From: Owenweeksia sp.
GTDB taxonomy: Bacteria > Bacteroidota > Bacteroidia > Flavobacteriales > Schleiferiaceae
Length of the DNA: 41,974 nt
Direction of reading: 5' to 3'
Assembly (NCBI GenBank): GCA_028277105.1
Contig: JANQHO010000003.1
Location: 1-41,974, forward strand
Part shown: one piece after another, positions 5,615 to 17,911 of the stretch
Numbering within the stretch: position 1 is the stretch's first letter
How the letters are laid out: each line of letters begins with the position of its first letter
Translations under genes and position numbers: made by a program
Notes under the pieces: generated by a model
What the model was told of the DNA's origin: nothing
The model's input: only the letters and a program-made list of their open reading frames with translations
Database searches by the model: none

Positions 5615-8089
5615 ATGGCCAGTAAAAAATTGCTATTGATAGGTTGGGATGCCGCAGACTGGCAACTCATTAATCCCCTGATCAAACAGGGGAAGATGCC
5701 TGCCTTGCAAAGAATGATCGAAAAGGGAGTAAAGGGCAACATAGCTACCCTTAACCCATCCCTTAGCCCTATCTTATGGACCAGCATCGCCACCGGAAAA
5801 CGCGCTTACGATCACGGTATTTTAGGCTTTGTACAACCCACTGCCGATCTGCAGGAAGTAGAGCCGATTACCTCCACCTCACGCAAGACTAAAGCCATCT
5901 GGAATATTCTCAATGAAGCCGGTTATACCACTAATGTGATCAATTGGTGGCCCTCCCATCCGGCCGAAAAACTAAAGGGAGTAACCCTTACCAATCACTT
6001 TCATCAAAAAGCCCCGGCTTTTGGAGCAGGGTGGCCCTTGGATTCATCTGTTGTATATCCCAATACTTTTTATGAAAGCCTGAAAGAACTGCGCCTTCAT
6101 CCGGCAGAGCTAAGCCTAGCCCATATTTTACCCTTTGTACCGGAGGCCCATAAACTGGATCCCGAAAAGGATACTGTGCTTAAGAACCTCATGCGCATAT
6201 TGGCGCACAACAGCTCCATCCATAATGCCGCTACTCATTTACTGGCGGAAACCGAATGGGATTTTACCGCGGTTTATTATGAAACGCTCGATCATATCAG
6301 CCACCTGGCTATGAAATACCATCCACCCAGACAGGAAGGAGTAGATGAAAGGGAGTATGAGCGGTATAAGAATATAGTGGAAGCCGCTTATCGCTTCAAA
6401 GATATGATGTTGGAACGCTTACTCGATCTGGCCGGAGAAGACTGTAATGTGATCCTATTGTCTGATCACGGTTTTCAGTCGGGCCAACAAAGGCAAGTCG
6501 AATTACCCGATATCCCGGCTTCACCTGCTCTGGAACATCGCAAATACGGCATTTTTATAGCTTCTGGACCGGATTTTAAACCAGGACAGGATATTTACGG
6601 TACTTCTTTGTTGGATATCGCCCCCACAATTTTACATTTATTCGACCTTCCCGTAGGAAACGATATGGAGGGAAAAGTACTGACCGACAGCCTGAAAGAA
6701 AAAACTCCCGTAGGCCATATTCCTTCCTGGGAACTTACCCCGGGTAAAGTGGAGTTTACTGATTCCCGGCTGGAAAACAATACCAGCATATTGCAACAAC
6801 TAGAGCAACTGGGCTATATCGATCTCAACCAAAGCGATAAAGTTCGCTATGTACAGCGGGAGTTGCGTTACAATTTATGTCAGAGTCTGACAGACGGCAA
6901 CAAGCTGTTCCGGGCTCAGGAGGAGTGTGAATTGCTCTTTAAAGATTTTCCCGATTTCAGAACTGCCTTGTTGTTGGGGGATATTTTTATAAAAAGAGCT
7001 GATTTTAAAAGTTTTGAGGATCTTAAACAGAGACTTGGCACAGAAGTAAAGGGTCATCCCTCTTTTAAGTATTTAAGCGGACTCTCAGAGCTTTACCAGG
7101 GTAAGGTTAGCCAATCGCTGGGATACTTTTTAAAGATCGAAGAAGAAGGTGGCCATAGTCTGCAGTTGTACAACGAAGTAGGCCGGGCCTTTTTGTTGTC
7201 CGGTGAATTGAGAGCGGCTGAAAGATATTTTGACCGATCCTTGGCCCTAGACGCTGAAAACGCCCCGGCCCTGACCGGAAAGGCTCAGTGTGCCGTTGAG
7301 AAAAATGATTTCAGTCAGGCCATATTGTTACTGGACAAAAGCCTGCAGCAACTTTTTTACCAGCCCAACGCTCATTATCTTATGGCGGTTGCCCTGAGAG
7401 GACTCAAAAAGGAAGATGAAGCGGTAAAGGCTTTACAGCTTTGCCTTTCCCAGGCTCCCAAACACCGGAAAGCCCTTGTCTTAAAACAAGAGTTTTTTAA
7501 AAGCAGAGAAATAAGAGAGGAAATAACCATAGTAACCGGCTTTCCCCGCAGTGGTACCAGCCTGATGATGAAAATGCTCGAAATGTCAGGCTATCCCGTT
7601 TTTACGGATGAAGTGCGCGTGGCCGATCAGCACAATCCTGCAGGATACCTTGAGCACGAAATGGTGAAAAAACTGGCGGGTAATACAGACTGGTTGAAAC
7701 AGGTCATGAACAAAGCAGTAAAGGTAGTTCTACCTTTGTTGCGTTACCTGCCTGCGGATTACAGCTATCGCCTGATCTGGGTAAAACGCCCCCTTACAGA
7801 GGTGATCCTGTCCCAGGAAGTGATGAAAGGCAAAGACCGCCAAACCGTTATGCAGAATTTCCCTTTTCAACTGGCGGCCGATTTCCAAAAAGAAGAAGAA
7901 AGAATGTTACAATGGCTGCAATCACAGCCCAACTTTGCCATACTCCAGCTTGAATATTACGATTGCCTCAGTAAACCAGAGGAAGTTTTAGGACAAATAC
8001 GACAGTTCCTGGATGTTCAGTTAAACGTTGAAGAAGGAAAAAAGTCAGTTAATAAAGACTTACATCGCAATAAATTGGGGGAGTACTAA
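5615..8089 (+). CDS. Phosphodiesterase (AP superfamily) - TPR - sulfotransferase-like fusion
   Basis: 824 aa, no signal peptide. Residues 1 to about 370 form an alkaline-phosphatase-superfamily type I phosphodiesterase/nucleotide pyrophosphatase domain: metal Asp in IGWDAAD (D12), candidate nucleophile Thr in LWTSIATGK (T56), YYETLDHISH and SDHGFQ (D284, H285). Residues about 410-625 are TPR-like helical repeats (YNEVGRAFLLSGELRAAERY, then ALTGKAQCAVEKNDFSQA). The C-terminal part (about 635-824) has the PAPS-binding P-loop TGFPRSGTSLMMKML (F643-S649) and resembles bacterial sulfotransferase-family proteins. Substrates are unknown. It could modify or remodel a sulfated or phosphodiester-linked glycan or lipid in the cytoplasm. 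The start follows a -7 box by 20 bp. Confidence 0.85.
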   Translation: MASKKLLLIGWDAADWQLINPLIKQGKMPALQRMIEKGVKGNIATLNPSLSPILWTSIATGKRAYDHGILGFVQPTADLQEVEPITSTSRKTKAIWNILNEAGYTTNVINWWPSHPAEKLKGVTLTNHFHQKAPAFGAGWPLDSSVVYPNTFYESLKELRLHPAELSLAHILPFVPEAHKLDPEKDTVLKNLMRILAHNSSIHNAATHLLAETEWDFTAVYYETLDHISHLAMKYHPPRQEGVDEREYERYKNIVEAAYRFKDMMLERLLDLAGEDCNVILLSDHGFQSGQQRQVELPDIPASPALEHRKYGIFIASGPDFKPGQDIYGTSLLDIAPTILHLFDLPVGNDMEGKVLTDSLKEKTPVGHIPSWELTPGKVEFTDSRLENNTSILQQLEQLGYIDLNQSDKVRYVQRELRYNLCQSLTDGNKLFRAQEECELLFKDFPDFRTALLLGDIFIKRADFKSFEDLKQRLGTEVKGHPSFKYLSGLSELYQGKVSQSLGYFLKIEEEGGHSLQLYNEVGRAFLLSGELRAAERYFDRSLALDAENAPALTGKAQCAVEKNDFSQAILLLDKSLQQLFYQPNAHYLMAVALRGLKKEDEAVKALQLCLSQAPKHRKALVLKQEFFKSREIREEITIVTGFPRSGTSLMMKMLEMSGYPVFTDEVRVADQHNPAGYLEHEMVKKLAGNTDWLKQVMNKAVKVVLPLLRYLPADYSYRLIWVKRPLTEVILSQEVMKGKDRQTVMQNFPFQLAADFQKEEERMLQWLQSQPNFAILQLEYYDCLSKPEEVLGQIRQFLDVQLNVEEGKKSVNKDLHRNKLGEY

Positions 8090-8124
8090 GTTTTTCAGAT
8101 TTTTGAAGCTTGTTTACGAAACAC

Positions 8125-8985
8125 ATGAATAAAGAAAAATTAGAAAAAGCCATTTTGAAATATACCGGGGTAGCCGCTGCCCTGTTGGGAGGAAATGCTG
8201 TTAAAGGGCAGGTGATCTATACCGATATCCCCGATACTACCCTGGATGAAAATGGCGAGTTCTACGATTTTAATATAGATCTGGATACAAGTGGGGTAGT
8301 GGATTTCCGCATCACTCAATTGGTAGACAGTACCCGTTTCATGATCAATGGGGTGGTGATACAGGATATAGGTACAGCTTCCAATGAGGTAGCCGGCATA
8401 GATTACGGCAATTACAATTATCCCTTTAAACTCAATTTGGGCGATACTATAGGGGATGGCCATCAGGTTTTTAAAGGACTGGGACAGAACAATCTCGGTT
8501 ATATGGCTTTCGAAGTGCTGGACACTACTTATCCCAACAGCAATTTTGCCGGTGGGGTAACCGATGGTTTCCTGGGTCTGCGTTTCAGGGGCGACTTTGA
8601 TGATACCATCCGTACCTTTTATGGCTGGATACGCCTGGATGTGGCAGCCGATCTCAAATCAGTCACCATTAAGGATTTTGCTTACCAATCCCAATTCGAC
8701 TCCTCCATTACAGCCGGGCAGGGTGCTCAGATCGGATTACAGGAGAATATAAGGGAACAGGCCGAGCTTACCCAGCGAGGTATGGAGTTGTTTATCCGCT
8801 TACCGGAGTATTTTACTGCCGGAGGGAAGCTCGAGATATTGAATATGTCTGGTCAGTTGATAAGGGAAGAGGATTTTGAAGGCAGGGAACATCATTATCC
8901 TCTGGGTGATCTTCCCAAAGGTGTTTTAGTAGCTGTATTGACGACCAATGGCCAGCAAAACAGCAAAAAGATAGTGGTTTACTAA
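8125..8985 (+). CDS. Secreted protein with T9SS-type C-terminal sorting domain
   Basis: 286 aa from the ATG at 8125. An upstream in-frame TTG at 8110 is less likely. The N-terminus MNKEKLEKAILKYTGVAA ends in a cleavable-looking segment before QVIYTDIPD, as in many Bacteroidota secreted proteins. The body is Asp-rich and beta-type (IDLDTSGVVDFRITQL). The last 70 residues (LEILNMSGQLIREEDFEG, then LPKGVLVAVLTTNGQQNSKKIVVY) have the shape of a type A T9SS sorting domain that sends cargo across the outer membrane. It follows the fusion gene by 35 bp and may be co-transcribed. The function of the body is unknown. Confidence 0.75.
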   Translation: MNKEKLEKAILKYTGVAAALLGGNAVKGQVIYTDIPDTTLDENGEFYDFNIDLDTSGVVDFRITQLVDSTRFMINGVVIQDIGTASNEVAGIDYGNYNYPFKLNLGDTIGDGHQVFKGLGQNNLGYMAFEVLDTTYPNSNFAGGVTDGFLGLRFRGDFDDTIRTFYGWIRLDVAADLKSVTIKDFAYQSQFDSSITAGQGAQIGLQENIREQAELTQRGMELFIRLPEYFTAGGKLEILNMSGQLIREEDFEGREHHYPLGDLPKGVLVAVLTTNGQQNSKKIVVY

Positions 8986-10187
8986 ATCTTTTCCGACATT
9001 TCCACGATCCGGTCAGCAATGGACAGGCAGGAAGTGGCAGCCGGTGAAGGCGCATTGAGTACATGCACGGAACGATGCCCGTATTCTACCTTGAAATCAT
9101 CGACCAGCGAACCGTCTTTTAGCAAGGCCTGAGCTCTAACCCCAGCTCTTGCGGGTTGAATATCATCCATAGTAAGAGAGGGTATCATCTTCTGCAAAGC
9201 CTGGAGAAAGAGTTTTTTGGAGAAGGCTCTCTTGTATTCTTCCAACCCTTGTTTGTAGTGTTTGCCGAAAAGCTTCCAGGTTCCGGGGAAGGTAAGTGCC
9301 TGTACCGAGTCTTTCCAATTAAAAGAAGTGCGGGAATAGCCCTCTCGTTTAAAGCTGAATACTGCATTAGGCCCGCACTCTACCGAACCATCTATCATAC
9401 GGGTAAAGTGCACTCCCAGGAAAGGGAAATCCGGATCGGGAACAGGGTAGATGAGGTGCTTTACCTTGTGCTTTCCTTTTTTACTCAATTCGTAATAATC
9501 GCCCCTGAAACCGACAATCTGCAGATCCAGTTCATTGCCTTCCTTTTTGGCTAGCCGGTCAGATTGCAAACCGGCACAAAAGATTCTCCGGTCACAGTAG
9601 AATTTACCTTTGTTGGTAATGAGCCCACCTTGGCCATCTTCATCAAATGACTCTGTTACTTTGGTAGAGAGGAAAACCTCGCTTTCAGGGTTAATTTGAG
9701 TGAGGAGTTCCCCAAATTTTTGACATACCGCTACATAATCGATAATTCCGGTTACTGGTACCCGGATAGCTTCTACTCCTTCTGTAAATGGTTCGATCTC
9801 TTTTATACGGTTCGGCCCTATTTTCTCAATCCCTTCAATATTGTTTTCAATTCCCCGCTGAAAGATCTTTTCCAGTAAAGGCTTTTCAGCCTCTTCCGTA
9901 GCCAGGATGATCTTACCGCAGATGTCATGGGCAATATGGTGTTCTTGAGCAAAAGCTACGATCTGCTTTCGGCCGTCAACGCAGTTACGCGCTTTAAAGG
10001 AACCCGGTTTGTAATAAATACCGGAGTGGATAACACCTGAGTTGCGGCCGGTCTGGTGAGCGCCCAGAAAAGCCTCCTTTTCAAATACGGCTATTTTATA
10101 GTGCGGATATTTCTTTTGGAACTTATAGGCTGTGGCCAGACCGACAATGCCGCCACCAGTAATACCTAGATCGTAATGTTTATCCAA
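8982..10187 (-). CDS. lhgO: L-2-hydroxyglutarate oxidase
   Basis: 401 aa FAD-dependent enzyme of the DAO superfamily that oxidises L-2-hydroxyglutarate to 2-oxoglutarate. The dinucleotide fold GGGIVGLATA is at residues 11-20. GRNSGVIHSGIYYKPGSFKARNC-type and VPVTGIIDYVAV segments are diagnostic of the LhgO/L2HGDH family, and VRAQALL and NAPSPAATSCL sit near the C-terminus. The start codon is TTG (10185-10187): a TAA lies in frame just upstream and no ATG precedes the FAD motif. The 3' end overlaps the convergent T9SS gene by 4 bp. Confidence 0.92.
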   Translation of the reverse strand: MDKHYDLGITGGGIVGLATAYKFQKKYPHYKIAVFEKEAFLGAHQTGRNSGVIHSGIYYKPGSFKARNCVDGRKQIVAFAQEHHIAHDICGKIILATEEAEKPLLEKIFQRGIENNIEGIEKIGPNRIKEIEPFTEGVEAIRVPVTGIIDYVAVCQKFGELLTQINPESEVFLSTKVTESFDEDGQGGLITNKGKFYCDRRIFCAGLQSDRLAKKEGNELDLQIVGFRGDYYELSKKGKHKVKHLIYPVPDPDFPFLGVHFTRMIDGSVECGPNAVFSFKREGYSRTSFNWKDSVQALTFPGTWKLFGKHYKQGLEEYKRAFSKKLFLQALQKMIPSLTMDDIQPARAGVRAQALLKDGSLVDDFKVEYGHRSVHVLNAPSPAATSCLSIADRIVEMSEKI

Positions 10188-10221: not shown

Positions 10222-11130
10222 TCAGTGAATATTGAACATACGGGAGATATTGAACCCGAAGTGAATATCACCATCCATCCAGCTACCGGGTGTTTGGGCA
10301 AATACAAAAGGTTCTGCTACTGCCCTTGAATTGGTAAAAAAGAGCTGGAAAACATGCCCCCCGGTTTCGATATCAAAACCCAATGATAAGGCTCCCCTGT
10401 AATTTTCTTGAGTCCCTTCAGCCAGATTGGTAAAAGCATTAGGGTTGAGCGGATGAACATATTCTACACTGATAGCGTGCTGCGGGCTTATTTTGTAACG
10501 GGCAGCCATCCCTATGGAAATAATATCGTTATTGTCTGAAATACGGTCTACCAGGTTAAAATGTGTGAGAGCCGGCACTAATTCCATTGAAAACTCTGGC
10601 GAAAATTTCCGGGCGACCACCAATTGATGAACATAGTTAAAGCGTTCTGATTCATTACGGGGTAATCCATCATCGGGAAAACGCTCTGCCGTGTAAAACA
10701 ATCCGGAGTAGCCGGTAATGGAAACCGGAAAATTGACTTTGCCCTTACTTTGCCTGGCCAGGCGGTATTTTACAAAACCGTCATAGGTGCGAGGAGTGGC
10801 AGAAGCATAACCCAATCCCAGGTTGAGCCAGTCCAATGGGCTGTAGTCCACAGTAAGGCGTACTTCTGCTACATTCAAACCAAAAAAATTGTAGAAATAA
10901 TCATCGTTAAAAGAACCAAAGCGGTGCAGAATGAGAAATTGCATTTCCCCTTTGGCCGTTAATTCGTTTGACTGTAAATTGACAATACGGGTTCCCTTGA
11001 AGGTGGCAAAGGTGTATTCCGTTTGAGGCCCTTGTTCGTCCTCCAACATTTTGAGCAAGTCGTCCTGCCCAAAACCGCTAAAGGCAAAAAGTAAAAAGAA
11101 GCCTGTCAGAAGGCTTCTTTTCAGAGGCAT
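10222..11130 (-). CDS. DUF5777 family outer-membrane beta-barrel protein
   Basis: 302 aa from the ATG at 11130. MPLKRSLLTGFFLLFAFSGFG is a signal peptide, so the earlier in-frame start at 11145 is not preferred. The motif FKGTRIVNLQSNELTAKGEM, alternating beta strands (EVRLTVDYSPLDWLNLGLGYASAT) and a C-terminus near FGFNISRMF are characteristic of DUF5777 proteins, which are predicted barrels. The ATG follows the YceI stop by 1 nt (TGATATG), so the two are translationally linked. It is the last gene of a four-gene operon that begins with two haem-motif lipoproteins. The function is unknown, but the context suggests a role with periplasmic redox or lipid-like ligands. Confidence 0.8.
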   Translation of the reverse strand: MPLKRSLLTGFFLLFAFSGFGQDDLLKMLEDEQGPQTEYTFATFKGTRIVNLQSNELTAKGEMQFLILHRFGSFNDDYFYNFFGLNVAEVRLTVDYSPLDWLNLGLGYASATPRTYDGFVKYRLARQSKGKVNFPVSITGYSGLFYTAERFPDDGLPRNESERFNYVHQLVVARKFSPEFSMELVPALTHFNLVDRISDNNDIISIGMAARYKISPQHAISVEYVHPLNPNAFTNLAEGTQENYRGALSLGFDIETGGHVFQLFFTNSRAVAEPFVFAQTPGSWMDGDIHFGFNISRMFNIH

Positions 11131-11131
11131 A

Positions 11132-11680
11132 TCATTCCTTATCATATTCCATCTTTACAGTAATTTCCAACACATCGGAAATATTATTGCGCTTGGAAGC
11201 CGGAATCTTTACCCCGTAATCTTCAGGCTTGAGCTTAAAAGTAGATAGGAGCTTTACAGTTCCTTCAGATACCGTAAAAGTGGCTTTTTCAGAAATTTTT
11301 CTATCTACCCCATGGATATCCATGGTACCGGCAAAAGCTACTTCATAGCTACCTTCTTTTTCCAGTTGGGAGAAGTCAAAATTTTCAATACTTCCTTTGA
11401 AAGAAGCATTGGGGTATTTTCCGCTTTCCATGTAGTTTTCGTTGAAGTGCTCCTGCATTAAAGCCTTTTCAAATTCGAAACCCTTAATGGGCAGGAGAAA
11501 GGCAAAATTGCCCGTTTTTGTATCAATTACACTGGAAACTTGTTTGTTTTCCGCTTCAATGTCCTCAACCTGGGCGTTAGAATAAAATTTAATGTAACCG
11601 GTACGGGTCATATATTTTTGGGCAGAGCCTGTAAAAGCTGCAAAAACGGCAATAACTAATAAGAGGTTCTTTGTTTTCAT
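11132..11680 (-). CDS. YceI family periplasmic protein
   Basis: 182 aa from the ATG at 11680 (MKTKNLLLVIAVFAAF, signal peptide; an in-frame start at 11713 would overlap the upstream gene's end). It shows the YceI lipocalin-like beta barrel pattern: TGYIKFYSNA, GKYPNASFKG, and GTMDIHGVDRKISEKATFTV. Family members bind isoprenoid or polyprenyl-like ligands in the periplasm. It starts 29 bp after a haem-motif lipoprotein gene and is followed at 1 nt by DUF5777. Confidence 0.88.
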   Translation of the reverse strand: MKTKNLLLVIAVFAAFTGSAQKYMTRTGYIKFYSNAQVEDIEAENKQVSSVIDTKTGNFAFLLPIKGFEFEKALMQEHFNENYMESGKYPNASFKGSIENFDFSQLEKEGSYEVAFAGTMDIHGVDRKISEKATFTVSEGTVKLLSTFKLKPEDYGVKIPASKRNNISDVLEITVKMEYDKE

Positions 11681-11709
11681 AATCAGAGGGTTTTTATTCA
11701 TTAATACTT

Positions 11710-12084
11710 TCAATTATTGCGGGCTCCTTTGTTTACCCAGCGTTTAATCTTTTCAATTTCACAATTTGGCAAAGGCCCTCCCGGAGGCATTATCGGTCCG
11801 GAGCTTCCCGTTATCCTTCCAACAAGCCTGCCATCCGTGGCGGTGAGTTGCGCATCGTCATAAGTGCTGAAGTCCAGACCCGATTGCGGGTTATTCCCCA
11901 CGTGGCAACCGGAAGTAGCACAATTATCTTGCAGAATAGGCAGAATAACGGCTGCAAAAGTGGTTACGCTGGTATCACACTGGGTTTGCTGGAAATTTTG
12001 GTAGAGTTCTTCCCTGTTATCATAGTAGCAAGATGACATTAAAACAGGTATTAACACTATAAATAGGGGTTGGTGTAGCTTCAT
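11710..12084 (-). CDS. Cytochrome c-like lipoprotein (CX4CH haem motif)
   Basis: 124 aa from the ATG at 12084. The lipobox LMSSC near residue 19 predicts a lipoprotein. The motif ILPILQDNCATSGCHVG has a CX4CH haem-attachment arrangement like many Bacteroidota planctomycete-type cytochrome c domains. PIMPPGG supplies a candidate distal Met ligand, and CEIEKIKRWVNKGA is the usual tail. It is a diverged paralogue of the gene just upstream (shared MPPGG-x2-P-x-C-x-IEKI-x2-W block). Probably a periplasmic electron carrier or haem sensor; no substrate can be named. Confidence 0.75.
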   Translation of the reverse strand: MKLHQPLFIVLIPVLMSSCYYDNREELYQNFQQTQCDTSVTTFAAVILPILQDNCATSGCHVGNNPQSGLDFSTYDDAQLTATDGRLVGRITGSSGPIMPPGGPLPNCEIEKIKRWVNKGARNN

Positions 12085-12097
12085 GATCGACTTTACA

Positions 12098-12478
12098 TTA
12101 TTGAGGCATACTGTTAGTAAACCAAATTTCAATCTTCTCAATATTACAATCTGGCATTTTGCCTCCCGGAGGCATCACAGGTACTGATGGATCATTTTTA
12201 ACCCGGAGTAATAAATCAGTATTTAGCAAAGCATCTCTTACTTGGTTGTAGGTTTCCAGGCTGAGTCCCACCTGGGGGTTGGGGCCACCATGACAATTGA
12301 TGCAGTTATTGTCAACAATAGTTTTAATACTATTATTATAGGTTAGATTATGCGAATTACAACTAGTGTCACCGGGATTCAGAGTATCGGGCGGGGCGGG
12401 AAAAGGGTCGTGCTGACATGACAAGACCGCTATTAAAAGACATACAATCGCACAGGTGAATTTTATTAAATTGCCCAT
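12098..12478 (-). CDS. Cytochrome c-like lipoprotein (CXXCH haem motif)
   Basis: 126 aa. Signal with lipobox AVLSC (Cys about 21), then NCINCHGG, a canonical CXXCH haem-binding motif, and VMPPGGKMPDCNIEKIEIWF. The architecture equals that of the next gene downstream, 13 bp away, so the pair looks like a tandem duplication in which one copy uses CXXCH and the other CX4CH. It is the first gene of the operon with YceI and DUF5777, with a candidate promoter at 12517-12546. Confidence 0.75.
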   Translation of the reverse strand: MGNLIKFTCAIVCLLIAVLSCQHDPFPAPPDTLNPGDTSCNSHNLTYNNSIKTIVDNNCINCHGGPNPQVGLSLETYNQVRDALLNTDLLLRVKNDPSVPVMPPGGKMPDCNIEKIEIWFTNSMPQ

Positions 12479-12516
12479 AGTATTAAAGGGTTTTCACCCT
12501 GAAACGTGATTTATGC

Positions 12517-12546
12517 CAAATTTAATGTTTTAACATGAAAAGCGAA
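12517..12546 (-). promoter_or_regulatory. Candidate promoter of the haem-lipoprotein/YceI/DUF5777 operon
   Basis: On the minus strand TTCG (12546-12543) is followed after 18 bp by TAAATTTG (12524-12517), fitting the TTTG-N-TAnnTTTG pattern with one mismatch in the -33 element. It is 38 bp upstream of the first ATG. Confidence 0.5.
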
Positions 12547-12617
12547 CCTGTAAGAATTATTCATAAAAGAAGATCAATAGGCATGCTGCTTTTATATTCC
12601 TCTAAAATAGTACATAA

Positions 12618-13004
12618 ATGAAAAAAATTATCTGGATAGTATTAGCGTTGGCGCTGGTAGCAGGGGCGTCCTATTTTTATGTGTTTCACAAACCGCACCG
12701 CAACATCCATAAAGAAAAAGCGGCTTTTGACCTGTCGGCTGAAGCCCTTAAAACAGCCTATGCCAGTAATGTGGAAACAGCTAATGCTCTTTACCTGGAC
12801 CAGGTGGTAAAAGTTTCAGGTAAAGTGATAAAAAAGGACGGCAGCAACCTTAAGCTGGATCAGGGCATCTATTGTACCATGGCCGAGGGCTATGAACCTT
12901 CCACCGGTATGGAAGGGATGAAAGTAGTTGTAAAAGGGCGTGTAGTAGGCTACGATGAACTTTTTGAAGAGGTGAAAATGGACAATTGTGAATTGGTTCA
13001 ATAA
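12618..13004 (+). CDS. OB-fold (tRNA_anti-like) membrane-anchored protein
   Basis: 128 aa. An N-terminal TM anchor or signal (residues 4-22, IIWIVLALALVAGASYFYV) is followed by HKPHRNIHKEKAAFDLSAEAL and an OB-fold-like domain (DQVVKVSGKVIKKDGSNLKL, then MKVVVKGRVVGYDELFEEVKMDNCELVQ). This matches the tRNA_anti-like family as I recall it, which in Bacteroidota is often found beside DUF5777/YceI genes. It is divergent from the haem-lipoprotein operon with 139 bp between starts. Its 3' end overlaps the convergent MFS gene by 7 bp. Confidence 0.7.
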   Translation: MKKIIWIVLALALVAGASYFYVFHKPHRNIHKEKAAFDLSAEALKTAYASNVETANALYLDQVVKVSGKVIKKDGSNLKLDQGIYCTMAEGYEPSTGMEGMKVVVKGRVVGYDELFEEVKMDNCELVQ

Positions 13005-14278
13005 ACATGTGGGGTACGTTTTACCCGCATCATCAATAAGAAACCGATCACAAAGAAAATAGAAAGCGAAAGAGCGCTCATTTTCATGTCTCCCGTAAGG
13101 TCGATCAGATAACCGTAAACAATGGTTCCCAGTACAATAGCAACCTTTTCACTGACATCGTAAAAGCTGAAAAAACTGGCGTGCGACTGCGTTTCAGGTA
13201 GTAATTTGGAATAAGTGCTACGGCTAATAGCCTGGATACCGCCCATTACCAGACCCACTATACCGCCTATAGCATAAAATTTATACTCTACCAGGGGATC
13301 GGTTTTAGTTAAGGTATAAGCCAGGAAACATACTATGGACCAAATCACTATACTGATCTTTAAAGCTCCCAGATTACCGAATTTTTTTGACAGGAAGGAA
13401 AACAGATAAGCCCCTCCTATGCCTACAAATTGTATGATAAGTATAGTGGCTATCAATTTCGATGAATCCAGCTGCAGCTCCTCATCACCGTAAAGGCTGG
13501 CCAATAAAATAACAGTTTGTACTCCCATGTTGAAAAAGAAAAAACTGTAAAGAAACCTTCTCAGCGACTGGTGATCTTTAAGTTGCAGGAAAACACTGCG
13601 TAACTCCTGGTAGCCCTTCCAGAGATATTTGCCTTCTTCTGGCTTGCGCTGGTATATATTATCTGGTAAGCGCCTGAAGGAGATCTGGGCAAAGCCCGCC
13701 CACCAAAGACCTACGGTTAAAAAACTGATGCGTGAAGCTTCCCCGGCCCCGCTCAAACCAAAGGCCTCCGGCACGGTGATCATAGCTAGGTTAAAGATCA
13801 GCAAAATAGAAGAACCGATATAACCCAGGGCAAACCCTTTGGCACTCAGACCGTCCTGCCTTTCGGGCGGGGCTATTTCCGGTAGAAAAGCATTGTAAAA
13901 AACCAAACTGCCCCAAAAACCTATACTGGCCATAATGCTGAGACCCAGTCCCAGAAAAACGTTAGATCCGTCAAAAAAGAAAAGGGAACTGCAGGAAATG
14001 GCTCCCAGATAGCAAAAGATCTTTAAAAAGAGCTTTTTCTTGCCCGTATAATCGGCAATGCCCGAAAGCAGGGGAGAGATAATGGCTACAATCAGAAAAG
14101 AAACGGATAAAGAATAACTGTAGAGAGTAGAACTGGGAAAAGTATAACCCAGAAAGCTTATTTCACTATTTGCCGCATTGCTGAAGTAAATGGGAAATAC
14201 CGCGGTACTGATCACCAGTGAATACACAGAATTGGCCCAGTCGTAAAAAGCCCAGGCATTTTGAGTTTTCTTGTCCAT
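12998..14278 (-). CDS. MFS transporter, UMF1 family
   Basis: 426 aa from the ATG at 14278 (MDKKTQNAWAFYDWANSVYSL). The longer ORF start at 14365 would run into nrnA's promoter and start. AFYDWANSVYSLVISTAVFPIYF is the signature of the Atg22-like/UMF1 MFS family. I count about twelve hydrophobic segments, with an SGIADYTGKKK loop after the second and GGIQAISRSTYSKLLPE in the C-terminal half. An inner-membrane permease of unknown substrate. It is divergent from nrnA with 67 bp between starts. Confidence 0.88.
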   Translation of the reverse strand: MDKKTQNAWAFYDWANSVYSLVISTAVFPIYFSNAANSEISFLGYTFPSSTLYSYSLSVSFLIVAIISPLLSGIADYTGKKKLFLKIFCYLGAISCSSLFFFDGSNVFLGLGLSIMASIGFWGSLVFYNAFLPEIAPPERQDGLSAKGFALGYIGSSILLIFNLAMITVPEAFGLSGAGEASRISFLTVGLWWAGFAQISFRRLPDNIYQRKPEEGKYLWKGYQELRSVFLQLKDHQSLRRFLYSFFFFNMGVQTVILLASLYGDEELQLDSSKLIATILIIQFVGIGGAYLFSFLSKKFGNLGALKISIVIWSIVCFLAYTLTKTDPLVEYKFYAIGGIVGLVMGGIQAISRSTYSKLLPETQSHASFFSFYDVSEKVAIVLGTIVYGYLIDLTGDMKMSALSLSIFFVIGFLLMMRVKRTPHVY

Positions 14279-14331
14279 AGGGCAGCGAATATAGAGAAAA
14301 GCAGTGGGCCTGTACATCAGACTAAGCTGAT

Positions 14332-14339
14332 TATATTTG
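14332..14339 (+). promoter_or_regulatory. Candidate -7 box TATATTTG close to the nrnA start
   Basis: An exact TAnnTTTG octamer ending 6 bases before the nrnA ATG at 14346, implying a leaderless or nearly leaderless transcript if used. No -33 TTG is evident. The same arrangement occurs at dnaX. Confidence 0.35.
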
Positions 14340-14345
14340 TGCGCT

Positions 14346-15362
14346 ATGAAATTGCCCTCCCACATTAACGGCCCTGCTCATAAATTAATTGATGAAAGCG
14401 GAAAAATAATCGTAACCTGTCACGTAAATCCCGATGGAGATGCTATAGGGAGTGCGCTCGGGCTTTCACTGCTTTTGCAAAAAAGAGATAAAGACGTAAA
14501 GGTTATTGTACCCAATCAATATCCCGATTTTTTGAAATGGATGAAAGGCAGTGATGCGATCATTATCTACGAAGAAGATCCCGCTATTGCTGATGAACTA
14601 TTGGAACAGGCTGACCTGATCTTTCACCTGGATTATAACTCACTCAAACGAAGCGGTCCGATGGAATCAATACTGGCTAAAGTGAGAGCAAAAAGGATAA
14701 TGATCGATCACCACCCGGAGCCAGATGATTTTCCCGAACTGCGCTATTCCGATACTGCCATGTCCTCAACCTGTGAAATGGTATACCACTTTATCGAAAG
14801 TATGGGTTGGGAAAAGTATCTCGATACCGATGCAGCGGAATGTCTTTACACAGGTCTTACTACCGATACAGGAAGCTTTAAGTACAGTACGTCACCCGAT
14901 ACCCTTAAAGTGGCAGCTTCATTAGTGGCACTAGGGGTTAAACCGGAAGTTATTGCCTCCCGGGTTTACGATACCAATACAACATCCAAGCTAAAATTGC
15001 TAAGCCGGGCTTTGGAGCGGATGGATATTATAGAACGCTATAAAACAGCAGTAATAAGCCTCAGCGAGGAAGATTTGATTACATTTAACTTTCAGCGGGG
15101 TGATACGGAGGGTATAGTAAACTATGGTTTATCCGTTTTAGGTATGATGTTCAGTGCCTTTTTTTATCCCCGTGACGGTATGATCAAGATCAGTTTGCGA
15201 AGCAAAGGTGATTTTGATGTCAACGCTTTTGCCCGCAAACATTTTAATGGCGGTGGTCATAAAAATGCAGCAGGTGGCATGTCTGAGTTGAGTTTGGAAG
15301 AAAGCCTGAAAAAGTTTTACAAAATTCTGCCTTCTTACGAAGAAGAATTGCACAATGCTTAA
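14346..15362 (+). CDS. nrnA: DHH-DHHA1 phosphoesterase, NrnA-type (oligoribonuclease / pAp phosphatase)
   Basis: 338 aa from the ATG at 14346 (a TTG at 14337 in frame is less likely). Metal-binding motifs are HVNPDGDAIGSAL (H26, D30, D32), a central Asp in FHLDYNS, IDHHPEP (the DHH signature) and TGLTTDTGSFKYS. The DHHA1 substrate motif FNGGGHKNAAGG lies near the C-terminus. NrnA-type enzymes degrade nano-RNA and dephosphorylate 3'-phosphoadenosine 5'-phosphate. The gene overlaps gldI by 8 bp. I recall the nrnA-gldI neighbourhood from other gliding Bacteroidota. Confidence 0.88.
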   Translation: MKLPSHINGPAHKLIDESGKIIVTCHVNPDGDAIGSALGLSLLLQKRDKDVKVIVPNQYPDFLKWMKGSDAIIIYEEDPAIADELLEQADLIFHLDYNSLKRSGPMESILAKVRAKRIMIDHHPEPDDFPELRYSDTAMSSTCEMVYHFIESMGWEKYLDTDAAECLYTGLTTDTGSFKYSTSPDTLKVAASLVALGVKPEVIASRVYDTNTTSKLKLLSRALERMDIIERYKTAVISLSEEDLITFNFQRGDTEGIVNYGLSVLGMMFSAFFYPRDGMIKISLRSKGDFDVNAFARKHFNGGGHKNAAGGMSELSLEESLKKFYKILPSYEEELHNA

Positions 15363-15897
15363 TATTTTGAAATATACCTTTTTAATAGCCATTGCTCTTT
15401 TGATATATGGGTGTCAGTGCTCCGGACAGGAAGAGTCTGTTTTGCCTAACCGGCAAAAGCAAGAAGACCGCATTAAAGCTACCCGCGATTTTCTCCAAAA
15501 AGAACGCGCATCTATAGAAGCATACATGAAAGATAATCAATTGGAGATGCAGCCCAGCGGTACCGGCTTGTTTTATAAGGTATTAAAAGACTCGGTGGCT
15601 GGCAAAAATGCCAGCAGCAGTGATCGGGTAGAAATAGAATACCGCATTTCCAATATGTACGGAAAGGTGTATTATTCTTCAGAAGAAAGCGGAACCCGTA
15701 CCTTTACTATTGATCGTGAAGACGTAGAAATAGGCCTGCACGAAGCAGTAAAATTTCTGGGGCTTGGCGATAAGGGCCTATTTATTTTACCTTCGCACTT
15801 GGCCTTTGGCGTAGCAGGCGATCAGAAGAGAATTCCACCTGTAACTCCATTGGTTTACGAAATAGAAATAATTAATATTCAAAAATCGAAATCCTAA
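15355..15897 (+). CDS. gldI: GldI-like FKBP-type peptidyl-prolyl isomerase lipoprotein
   Basis: 180 aa. Lipobox LLIYGC (Cys about 20), then a coiled segment ([25 protein letters not shown]) and an FKBP-type domain ([13 protein letters not shown], then [54 protein letters not shown]). The length and domain order match GldI, the periplasmic FKBP lipoprotein needed for gliding in Flavobacterium. It starts within the end of nrnA (8-bp overlap) and is followed at 5 bp by a second PPIase gene, so three PPIase genes lie in a row. Confidence 0.75.
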
Positions 15898-15902
15898 TTT
15901 CC

Positions 15903-16979
15903 ATGAGAAATGCACTAATGACGGCTCTGATCTTTGCCGGTATCCTCAGCAGCTGTAACTCCCAAAGTGGTGTAACGGTAAACGGTGAAAAGGTAGAGCT
16001 CGAAGATGGCCTGTACACTAAAATTACCACTAACAAAGGCGACATACTGTTAAAAATGCACTATGAAAAAACACCTATGACAGTTGCTAATTTCACGGGC
16101 CTGGCCGAGGGGAAAATTAAAAATAACGCTAAAGCCGAAGGTGAACCTTTTTACGATGGCCTCAAATTCCATCGCGTCATACCAGATTTCATGATACAGG
16201 GAGGTGACCCTCAGGGTAATGGCTCCGGAGGACCAGGCTATTCTTTTACCGATGAGTTTCATCCCGATTTGAAACACAATGGCCCCGGTGTGTTATCTAT
16301 GGCTAACAGCGGCCCTAATACCAATGGCAGCCAGTTTTTTATTACCCATAAGGAAACGCCTTGGCTGGATGGCAGGCACAGTGTATTTGGACAGGTAGTG
16401 CAGGGGCAGGACGTAGTCAATAAAATTGTCCAGAACGACATCATGGAAAAAGTAGAAGTGATAAGGGTAGGTAAAGAATTAAAGAATTACGATCCCGCCA
16501 AAGCTTTTGAAGAAGCTAAAGCAGAACAGGAAAAAAAGAAAGCTGAGGAGGCCAAAGAGAAGGCTAAAGCAGTGGAAAAATACACTAAGGATGCCCAAAA
16601 AACCGCCAGTGGCCTGCACTATAAAGTTTTAAAAGAAGGTGAGGGCCCAAAACCCGAACAGGGACAGATCGTAAGAGTACACTATGCCGGTTACTTGCCG
16701 GATGGAACCTTATTTGACAGTAGCATTAAAGAAATAGCCCAGAAAAACGGTAAATACGATGAGCGCAGTGAGCCTTATGATCCTTTTGAAGTAGCCTACG
16801 GCCCCCAGGCCAGGGTTATCCGTGGTTGGGTAGAAGGCCTGCAACTGATGAAAGTAGGCGATAAATATCAGTTGATCATACCACCAGATCTCGCTTATGG
16901 CAAAGGAGGCGTGCCCGGGCTTATTCCCGCTGATTCATGGTTGATCTTTGACGTAGAAATAGTAGGAATAAAGCAATAA
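15903..16979 (+). CDS. Dual-domain cyclophilin-FKBP prolyl isomerase, lipoprotein
   Basis: 358 aa. Lipobox ILSSC (Cys about 18). Residues about 35-190 form a cyclophilin: [21 protein letters not shown]-type active site, [14 protein letters not shown], and [14 protein letters not shown] with the Trp and His of the family. A charged Lys/Glu/Ala coiled coil (about 200-230, [18 protein letters not shown]) links to an FKBP (about 240-358: [44 protein letters not shown]). This is the cyclophilin-FKBP order of dual-family immunophilins. Probably a periplasmic foldase for outer-membrane or T9SS clients. Its TAA overlaps the next ATG by 1 nt. Confidence 0.9.
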
Positions 16980-17911
16980 TGGAAAAGGGTATTTACGCAA
17001 AGTTCAAGACTACTCACGGTGATATTACCGTAAAACTTGAACATGAAAAAACCCCTCTTACGGTGGCTAACTTTGTAGGCCTTGCCGAGGGTAAATTGAA
17101 AAATTCTTCTTCAGGAGAAGGAAAACCATATTACAATGGTTTGAAATTTCACCGGGTGATAGCTGATTTCATGATACAGGGTGGTGATCCCACCGGCAGC
17201 GGGGCCGGGGGGCCGGGCTATGCCTTTCCCGATGAATTTCATTCTGAATTGAAGCACGATGGCCCCGGTGTTTTATCTATGGCTAATGCAGGCCCTAATA
17301 CCAATGGCAGCCAATTTTTTATTACCCATAAGGAGACACCCTGGTTGGATAATAAACACTCGGTTTTCGGCAAAGTGACTGATGGACAAGCCGTGGTAGA
17401 CAGTGTGCGCCAGGGTGATGCCATGCAAAAAATTGAGATACTGAGGATAGGGGAAGAAGCTGAAAATTGGGATGCCGTAGCGGTATTTGATGAAAAGATG
17501 CAAAGCATAAGGGATGAGGAAGAAAAAAGAAGAACTGAAAAGCTGAAAGAGATAGCTTCCCTTATAGAAGGCTTTGAAAAGACACCCAATGGCGTATACT
17601 ACAAAATCACTGAGGTAGGTAACGGAAAAAAAGCTGAAAACGGTTATACCGTACATGTGCATTACCAGGGCCGATTAACTAACGGAACCATATTTGACGA
17701 CAGCAATAAAAGAGGAAACCCCATTGATTTTGTATTGGGGGCCGGCCAGGTAATACGGGGTTGGGACGAGGGTATAGCCCAACTGAAAGAAGGTGCAGAA
17801 GCCACTTTGATCATTCCACCGGAAATGGGCTACGGCAGTGCCGGGGCCGGAGGTGTAATACCGCCTGATGCCTGGCTGGTTTTTGATGTGAAACTCGTGA
17901 AAGTAGGATAA
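16979..17911 (+). CDS. Dual-domain cyclophilin-FKBP prolyl isomerase, cytoplasmic paralogue
   Basis: 310 aa with no signal or lipobox (starts [20 protein letters not shown]). Cyclophilin domain about 1-160 ([50 protein letters not shown]), a short charged linker ([14 protein letters not shown]) and an FKBP domain about 205-310 ([56 protein letters not shown]). Strong similarity to the preceding gene shows a tandem duplication that produced a lipoprotein and a cytosolic copy. ATG overlaps the previous TAA (TAATG), so they are translationally coupled. The linker is shorter than in the lipoprotein copy. Confidence 0.9.

Follow-up and report, generated by a model that had tools for sequence, protein, structure and literature searches.

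Cytochrome c6 and plastocyanin are exchangeable one-electron carriers. In the BcnA-LcoA system of Burkholderia, a YceI lipocalin and a cytochrome b561 take part in lipid-peroxyl detoxification; its authors propose that the lipocalin binds a quinone which the b561 reduces again, and point to a homologue that binds ubiquinone-8 (available portion of PMC9113575). YceJ-YceI has been proposed to form an extracellular electron path in Shewanella (PMC8981235, partial text), and the porin-cytochrome barrels of the Pcc/Mtr conduits have 18–28 strands (PMC4245776, partial text). The present work concerns a four-gene minus-strand operon (10222–12478) in a 41,974-nt stretch of Owenweeksia sp. contig JANQHO010000003.1 (hereafter the window, whose numbering gives all positions; contig 168 of a 3.9-Mb, 98.5% complete genome). 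The genes are transcribed in the order CytA, CytB, YceI and DUF5777 (Table 1). Reading of the open reading frames (ORFs) and the sequence places gaps of 13 nt between CytA and CytB, 29 nt between CytB and YceI, and 1 nt between YceI and DUF5777, exactly as in an initial annotation of this DNA. The two MPPGG lipoproteins that it named, one with CXXCH and one with CX4CH, are present as CytA and CytB, and its YceI, DUF5777 and divergent OB-fold genes all score above the Pfam cutoffs at exact coordinates. We tentatively propose that the operon is an envelope electron-transfer module, in which lipid-anchored carriers, a redox ligand held by YceI and a DUF5777 platform would act together; we rate this as a serious possibility, a little short of probable.

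Like BcnA-LcoA, the cassette links a YceI-family protein genetically to a haem electron carrier and would have a redox role in the envelope. The carrier differs, being a b561 in the former and a c-type, Rieske or cupredoxin lipoprotein in the latter, and the outer-membrane barrel belongs to the cassette only. Furthermore, a PF01292 (cytochrome b561) search gave no match in the Owenweeksia sp. genome, the operon included. Thus, the cassette is not a BcnA-LcoA member, and the precedents serve as mechanistic leads only. With the Pcc/MtrAB conduits it shares an outer-membrane barrel encoded beside c-type cytochromes; those conduits, however, combine their larger barrels with periplasmic cytochromes of 5–14 haems, whereas in the cassette a barrel of 12 predicted strands is paired with small cytochrome lipoproteins, one or two in number. 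Pcc/Mtr membership was rejected, the predicted barrel being too small and each operon lipoprotein having a single haem motif. The likeness to cytochrome c6 and plastocyanin lies in the c6-like profile of the cassette cytochromes and in the copper protein that substitutes in the same slot; the cassette carriers differ in being lipid-anchored and not photosynthetic, with Rieske proteins as a third alternative. Finally, the operon YceI shares with solved YceI-family proteins a domain over the Pfam cutoff and a profile match, and differs from them in adjoining DUF5777. Apart from the function of DUF5777, the part families are already known; the name 'DUF5777' is absent from the 5.39 million papers searched, and the listings of further literature searches gave no account of the cassette.

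DUF5777 was found in 153 of 395 sampled Bacteroidota genomes and in none of 14 control genomes. The loci surveyed comprised the operon locus, 149 further listed loci (drawn from 115 genomes that span 19 family-level groups) and another 80 taken from named records; two were lost to ORF calling, leaving 228 for analysis. YceI lies within four genes of DUF5777 in 198 of these, and a redox carrier in 203, a count that rose to 213 after re-reading of the gaps, since the ORF caller had missed the cytochrome in ten loci. As an internal control, genes within three of DUF5777 (n = 1314) were compared with those five or more genes away in the same loci (n = 786). YceI accounted for 202 near and 6 far genes, cytochromes for 209 and 2, OB-fold proteins for 66 and 0, Rieske proteins for 23 and 0, and cupredoxins for 9 and 2. 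Because YceI, cytochromes, OB-fold and Rieske proteins are so concentrated near DUF5777, the neighbourhood is real and not a product of chance. The core genes are closely spaced across loci (median 10 nt; 89% under 60 nt). The initial annotation had named this neighbourhood as present in other Bacteroidota while allowing that the genes might fail to co-occur; the survey shows them together in many genomes.

The redox gene beside YceI and DUF5777 is a cytochrome in most loci, either monohaem or dihaem, and the exchangeability of this slot is a new finding here. A Rieske lipoprotein takes it in 23 loci (two of which also have a cytochrome or more), with the cluster ligand motif in 22 of the 23 calls. 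A plastocyanin-like cupredoxin takes it in at least six, three of the nine calls being doubtful longer proteins. Pfam confirmed the Rieske and Copper-bind assignments for one representative each. A FastTree tree of the 228 DUF5777 sequences requires no fewer than 12 changes of carrier type; scored as Rieske against the rest, at least five are needed, and for cupredoxin two. Shared descent of one gene order is therefore no explanation. Since the slot is exchangeable, what is conserved is probably one-electron transfer and not haem. The c-type, Rieske and copper carriers would all be of high potential, and the constraint appears to be high-potential one-electron transfer. We regard the carrier exchange as the strongest argument for an electron role of the cassette, and its recurrence across the phylum, frequently with another type of electron carrier in place of the haem protein, suggests an undescribed electron-moving envelope module.

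The two operon lipoproteins are putative haem proteins. CytA has the lipobox LSC and the haem motif CINCH, CytB the lipobox SSC and the haem motif CATSGCH, and both have MPPGG; by the CXnCH motif and the distal Met ligand they would be class I c-type cytochromes. Pfam gave only sub-cutoff cytochrome matches for CytA and no cytochrome match for CytB. When 31 cassette cytochromes are aligned, every one of them (31/31) has the lipobox Cys, the two haem Cys, the His and M-P, and CX2CH and CX4CH share one aligned site; a profile built from this alignment hits PDB chains of cytochrome c6 (best 1.8e-6). The AlphaFold2 model of CytB (predicted local distance difference test score, pLDDT, 81.7) has no significant Foldseek match, its best c6 hit reaching only E 2.6. 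Over the 228 loci, 219 of 220 cassette cytochrome ORFs carry a CX2-5CH motif, with M-P/V downstream in 214 of the 219, so that the lack of conserved Cys motifs entertained by the initial annotation does not hold. The motif classes are one CXXCH (109), one CX4CH (66) and CX4CH followed by CXXCH (36). CytA is 50–52% identical to dihaem proteins of its nearest relatives (CX4CH plus CXXCH) and lacks their first, N-terminal haem domain. It is thus a shortened, one-haem version of a protein with two haem sites, which amends its initial description as simply a CXXCH lipoprotein. Cytochrome c assembly proteins are encoded in the genome.

An acidic residue follows the lipobox Cys at +4 in 49% and at +7 in 51% of cassette cytochromes (n = 162). 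Surface-export signals after the +1 Cys of lipoproteins, with a tested consensus, have been described (PMC5080379, partial text); the acidic bias at +4 and +6 to +8 somewhat resembles this Bacteroidota surface-lipoprotein (LES) signal without an exact match to that consensus. Many monohaem cassette cytochromes read C-Y-Y-D-N-E-E directly after the lipobox, and the dihaem ones C-x-H-(E/D)-P, with H at +3 in 29 of 39. Such family-specific sequences are possibly sorting or docking signals.

DUF5777 matched PF19089 with 285 bits (cutoff 23.1; 5.2e-85), and its AlphaFold2 model (pLDDT 94.4) has twelve strands. A PDB sequence search with it gave no matches. The nearest folds to the model by VIA-align were KdgM, FapF, COG4313 and NanC (Z 17–18); OMPLA, FadL and autotransporter barrels matched as well (Z 11–16) and were not used as evidence of function. 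Since many barrels match, the fold indicates a small outer-membrane barrel and nothing more. Among 79 DUF5777 sequences, 21 positions are invariant. H69, F71, H259, F261, F293 and R297 (strands 1, 11 and 12) are predicted to face outward, the facing being assigned from hydrophobicity alternation alone; if they do, these conserved residues would form a patch along the seam of the barrel, fit for contact with a protein or lipid. The operon YceI matched PF04264 with 49.2 bits (cutoff 23.7; 9.4e-13), its family profile matches solved YceI proteins in the PDB (5ixg, 2.4e-6), and HFNENY with neighbouring positions is near-invariant in the cassette YceI alignment. The genome encodes five YceI genes. 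A YceI gene from RNA-seq of iron-limited Riemerella could not be tied to the cassette.

The analysis establishes which genes form the set and that they are conserved, together with their haem and lipobox motifs, the carrier exchange and a confident barrel model; as to the ligand, the direction, the electron sink and the physical assembly, we infer the following scheme. CytA and CytB would be two lipid-anchored high-potential one-electron carriers that trade electrons with the respiratory chain of the periplasm, a role that dihaem cytochromes, Rieske proteins or cupredoxins would fill elsewhere. YceI would hold in its pocket a redox ligand of lipophilic nature, for which menaquinone is the likeliest candidate, and shuttle it between membrane and carrier, with DUF5777 as the outer-membrane barrel where carriers and YceI assemble. 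Electrons would most likely flow outward, keeping an outer-membrane quinone or lipid pool reduced. The outcome would be protection against lipid radicals, as in BcnA-LcoA, with c-type, Rieske or copper carriers replacing cytochrome b561. All 153 genomes with DUF5777 have a haem-copper oxidase, as opposed to 225 of 242 without it, a weak association uncorrected for kinship (the 17 oxidase-negative genomes were compared by eye with the list of DUF5777 genomes, and a script repeated the comparison for the order and class). The initial annotation had suggested a periplasmic carrier of electrons and of an isoprenoid-like ligand across to the outer membrane. An electron carrier and a ligand carrier there would agree with the data, and the electron half gains strength from the fact that Rieske proteins or cupredoxins have replaced haem more than once; electrons crossing inside the DUF5777 barrel on a folded cytochrome are unlikely, because the predicted 12-strand barrel is narrow and known porin-cytochrome barrels have 18–28 strands. 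Should the module indeed bring electrons to the outer membrane, a large set of environmental bacteria would possess an unsought path for them past the inner membrane, and one small operon would allow tests of what YceI does and of redox protection at the outer membrane.

Several observations weigh against this proposal. First, no carrier is seen in 15 of the 228 loci, some of which are truncated by contig ends. Second, neither a catalytic enzyme nor a dedicated electron donor or acceptor is a constant part of the operon. Third, replacement of cytochrome b561 by DUF5777 was rejected as a shown fact, there being no mutual exclusion between DUF5777 and PF01292 in 98 genomes from the order and class: PF01292 occurs in 26 of 67 genomes with DUF5777 and in 16 of 31 without (p 0.28 with order and class; p 0.06 with order alone). 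Fourth, many conserved charged residues, R211, K175 and E255 among others, are predicted to face the DUF5777 lumen, and may point to a solute channel instead of a scaffold. On this reading, DUF5777 would selectively admit some small ion or molecule for the lipoproteins to oxidise or reduce, and YceI would bind a substrate or product of hydrophobic character. The small-solute channels KdgM, NanC and COG4313 among the nearest folds agree with this, as does an extracytoplasmic function (ECF) sigma gene within four genes of DUF5777 in 34 of 228 loci, as in regulated uptake. Nevertheless, a common barrel fold is no proof of function, the operon includes no enzyme, and one-electron carriers alone rarely catalyse. 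We consider a solute module unlikely.

A separate branch of DUF5777 bears on a respiratory role. Eleven loci were labelled NrfD/EB_dh. The fuller ones (L141, L126, L150, L149 and L158) hold a monohaem lipoprotein, DUF5777, a small cytochrome c, an iron-sulphur protein with a twin-arginine (TAT) signal that is most like DsrO, and an NrfD protein most like DsrP; some add another lipoprotein, either EB_dh or a hexahaem one, the latter with a Cytochrome_C7 match and weak MtrC/MtrF and DmsE-type matches. In L158, a YceI lipoprotein stands in place of EB_dh; the EB_dh profile had mislabelled it, and Pfam corrected the call. In several genomes, for example G033, G099, G126 and G391, there are two to four genes for DUF5777, and both the YceI type and the NrfD/EB_dh type are represented. 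By gene context, this branch ties DUF5777 to quinol-linked electron transport, which also agrees with the envelope electron-transfer module. One could go further and regard the DUF5777 barrels as a new class of Bacteroidota outer-membrane electron-transfer apparatus, with a 12-strand barrel, a swappable lipid-anchored c-type, Rieske or copper carrier and YceI as the carrier of a quinone, one branch being wired as a respiratory conduit to an NrfD/iron-sulphur menaquinol module with multihaem lipoproteins; this we find rather doubtful. Similarly, the carriers and DUF5777 might form a trans-outer-membrane conduit that passes electrons to or from extracellular partners in respiration. The hexahaem, EB_dh, NrfD and iron-sulphur partners of this branch speak for such a conduit, as do the acidic stretch of many cassette cytochromes, somewhat like the export signals in the available text of PMC5080379, and the YceJ-YceI path proposed in that of PMC8981235. 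On the other hand, 12 strands fall short of the Pcc/Mtr range (as given in the partial text of PMC4245776), most YceI-type loci have 1–3 haems and a haem inside the barrel cannot be shown, and the acidic stretch has no exact match to the tested consensus; we judge the conduit to be improbable.

The YceI domain and the barrel would also suit transport of a lipid or isoprenoid to the outer membrane with no redox reaction involved, the cytochromes being sensors or bystanders. This is very unlikely given that a carrier is found in 213 of 228 loci and is repeatedly swapped for one with a different redox cofactor. That the genes are neighbours by chance or inheritance and do not work together, a view with nothing in its favour beyond shared ancestry, is hardly credible in view of the 19 family-level groups, the reordered genes and the near/far control that contradicts it.

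Table 1. Features of the operon and its surroundings in the window
Feature	Coordinates	Strand	Basis
CytA, lipoprotein, one CXXCH and MPPGG, 126 aa	12098..12478	-	sequence, Pfam, alignment of relatives
CytB, lipoprotein, one CX4CH (CATSGCH) and MPPGG, putative class I/c6-like cytochrome, 124 aa	11710..12084	-	sequence, alignment, PDB profile match, model
YceI-domain protein with signal peptide, predicted periplasmic ligand carrier, 182 aa	11132..11680	-	Pfam, family alignment, PDB profile match
DUF5777 outer-membrane protein, predicted 12-stranded barrel, 302 aa	10222..11130	-	Pfam, AlphaFold2 model, fold search
Membrane-anchored OB-fold (tRNA_anti-like) protein, 128 aa, divergent here	12618..13004	+	Pfam, locus reading
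Candidate -7 element TAAATTTG, 39–46 nt upstream of CytA start	12517..12524	-	sequence
L-2-hydroxyglutarate oxidase (LhgO), 34 nt downstream of DUF5777, same strand	8982..10187	-	NCBIfam equivalog match

The candidate label of the -7 element presumes TAnnTTTG as the Bacteroidota motif. The OB-fold protein matches tRNA_anti-like PF12869 above the cutoff (1.3e-8). Of the 228 loci, 77 have a member of its family close to DUF5777, usually within the operon, where it separates the cytochrome from YceI, and the gene belongs to the cassette neighbourhood. It is associated with the presence of any cytochrome (p 0.001, uncorrected for kinship), and might be an accessory factor. A helper role specific to CX4CH haem was rejected, there being no association (CX4CH in 38 of 68 loci with the OB-fold gene and in 62 of 104 without; p 0.64).

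LhgO also adjoins DUF5777 in three other loci (L184, L185 and L208). It is possibly co-transcribed with the operon and is outside the conserved cassette core; it could be an electron donor that joined the operon in the Owenweeksia sp. lineage. The nearest named relatives of the DUF5777 protein are from Owenweeksia and from Cryomorphaceae metagenome-assembled genomes (MAGs). Locus L242, from a record titled Euryarchaeota archaeon, has a typical Bacteroidota cytochrome-YceI-DUF5777 cassette and is probably a mislabelled MAG.

Further genes surround the operon in the window. An 824-aa phosphodiesterase-TPR-sulfotransferase protein is encoded at 5615–8089 (+), and a protein with a weak match to the tail of the type IX secretion system (T9SS) at 8110–8985 (+); counterparts of both, by size and position matching only, adjoin the cassette in the same orientation in L181, L182, L184 and L185. 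An ATG22-like gene of the major facilitator superfamily (MFS; 12998–14365, -) is convergent with the OB-fold gene, with a 7-nt overlap, and a similar-sized gene takes its place in L181–L183. Finally, three tandem FKBP/cyclophilin-like frames lie at 15355–17911 (+), two of which appear by eye to be fused cyclophilin-FKBP proteins.

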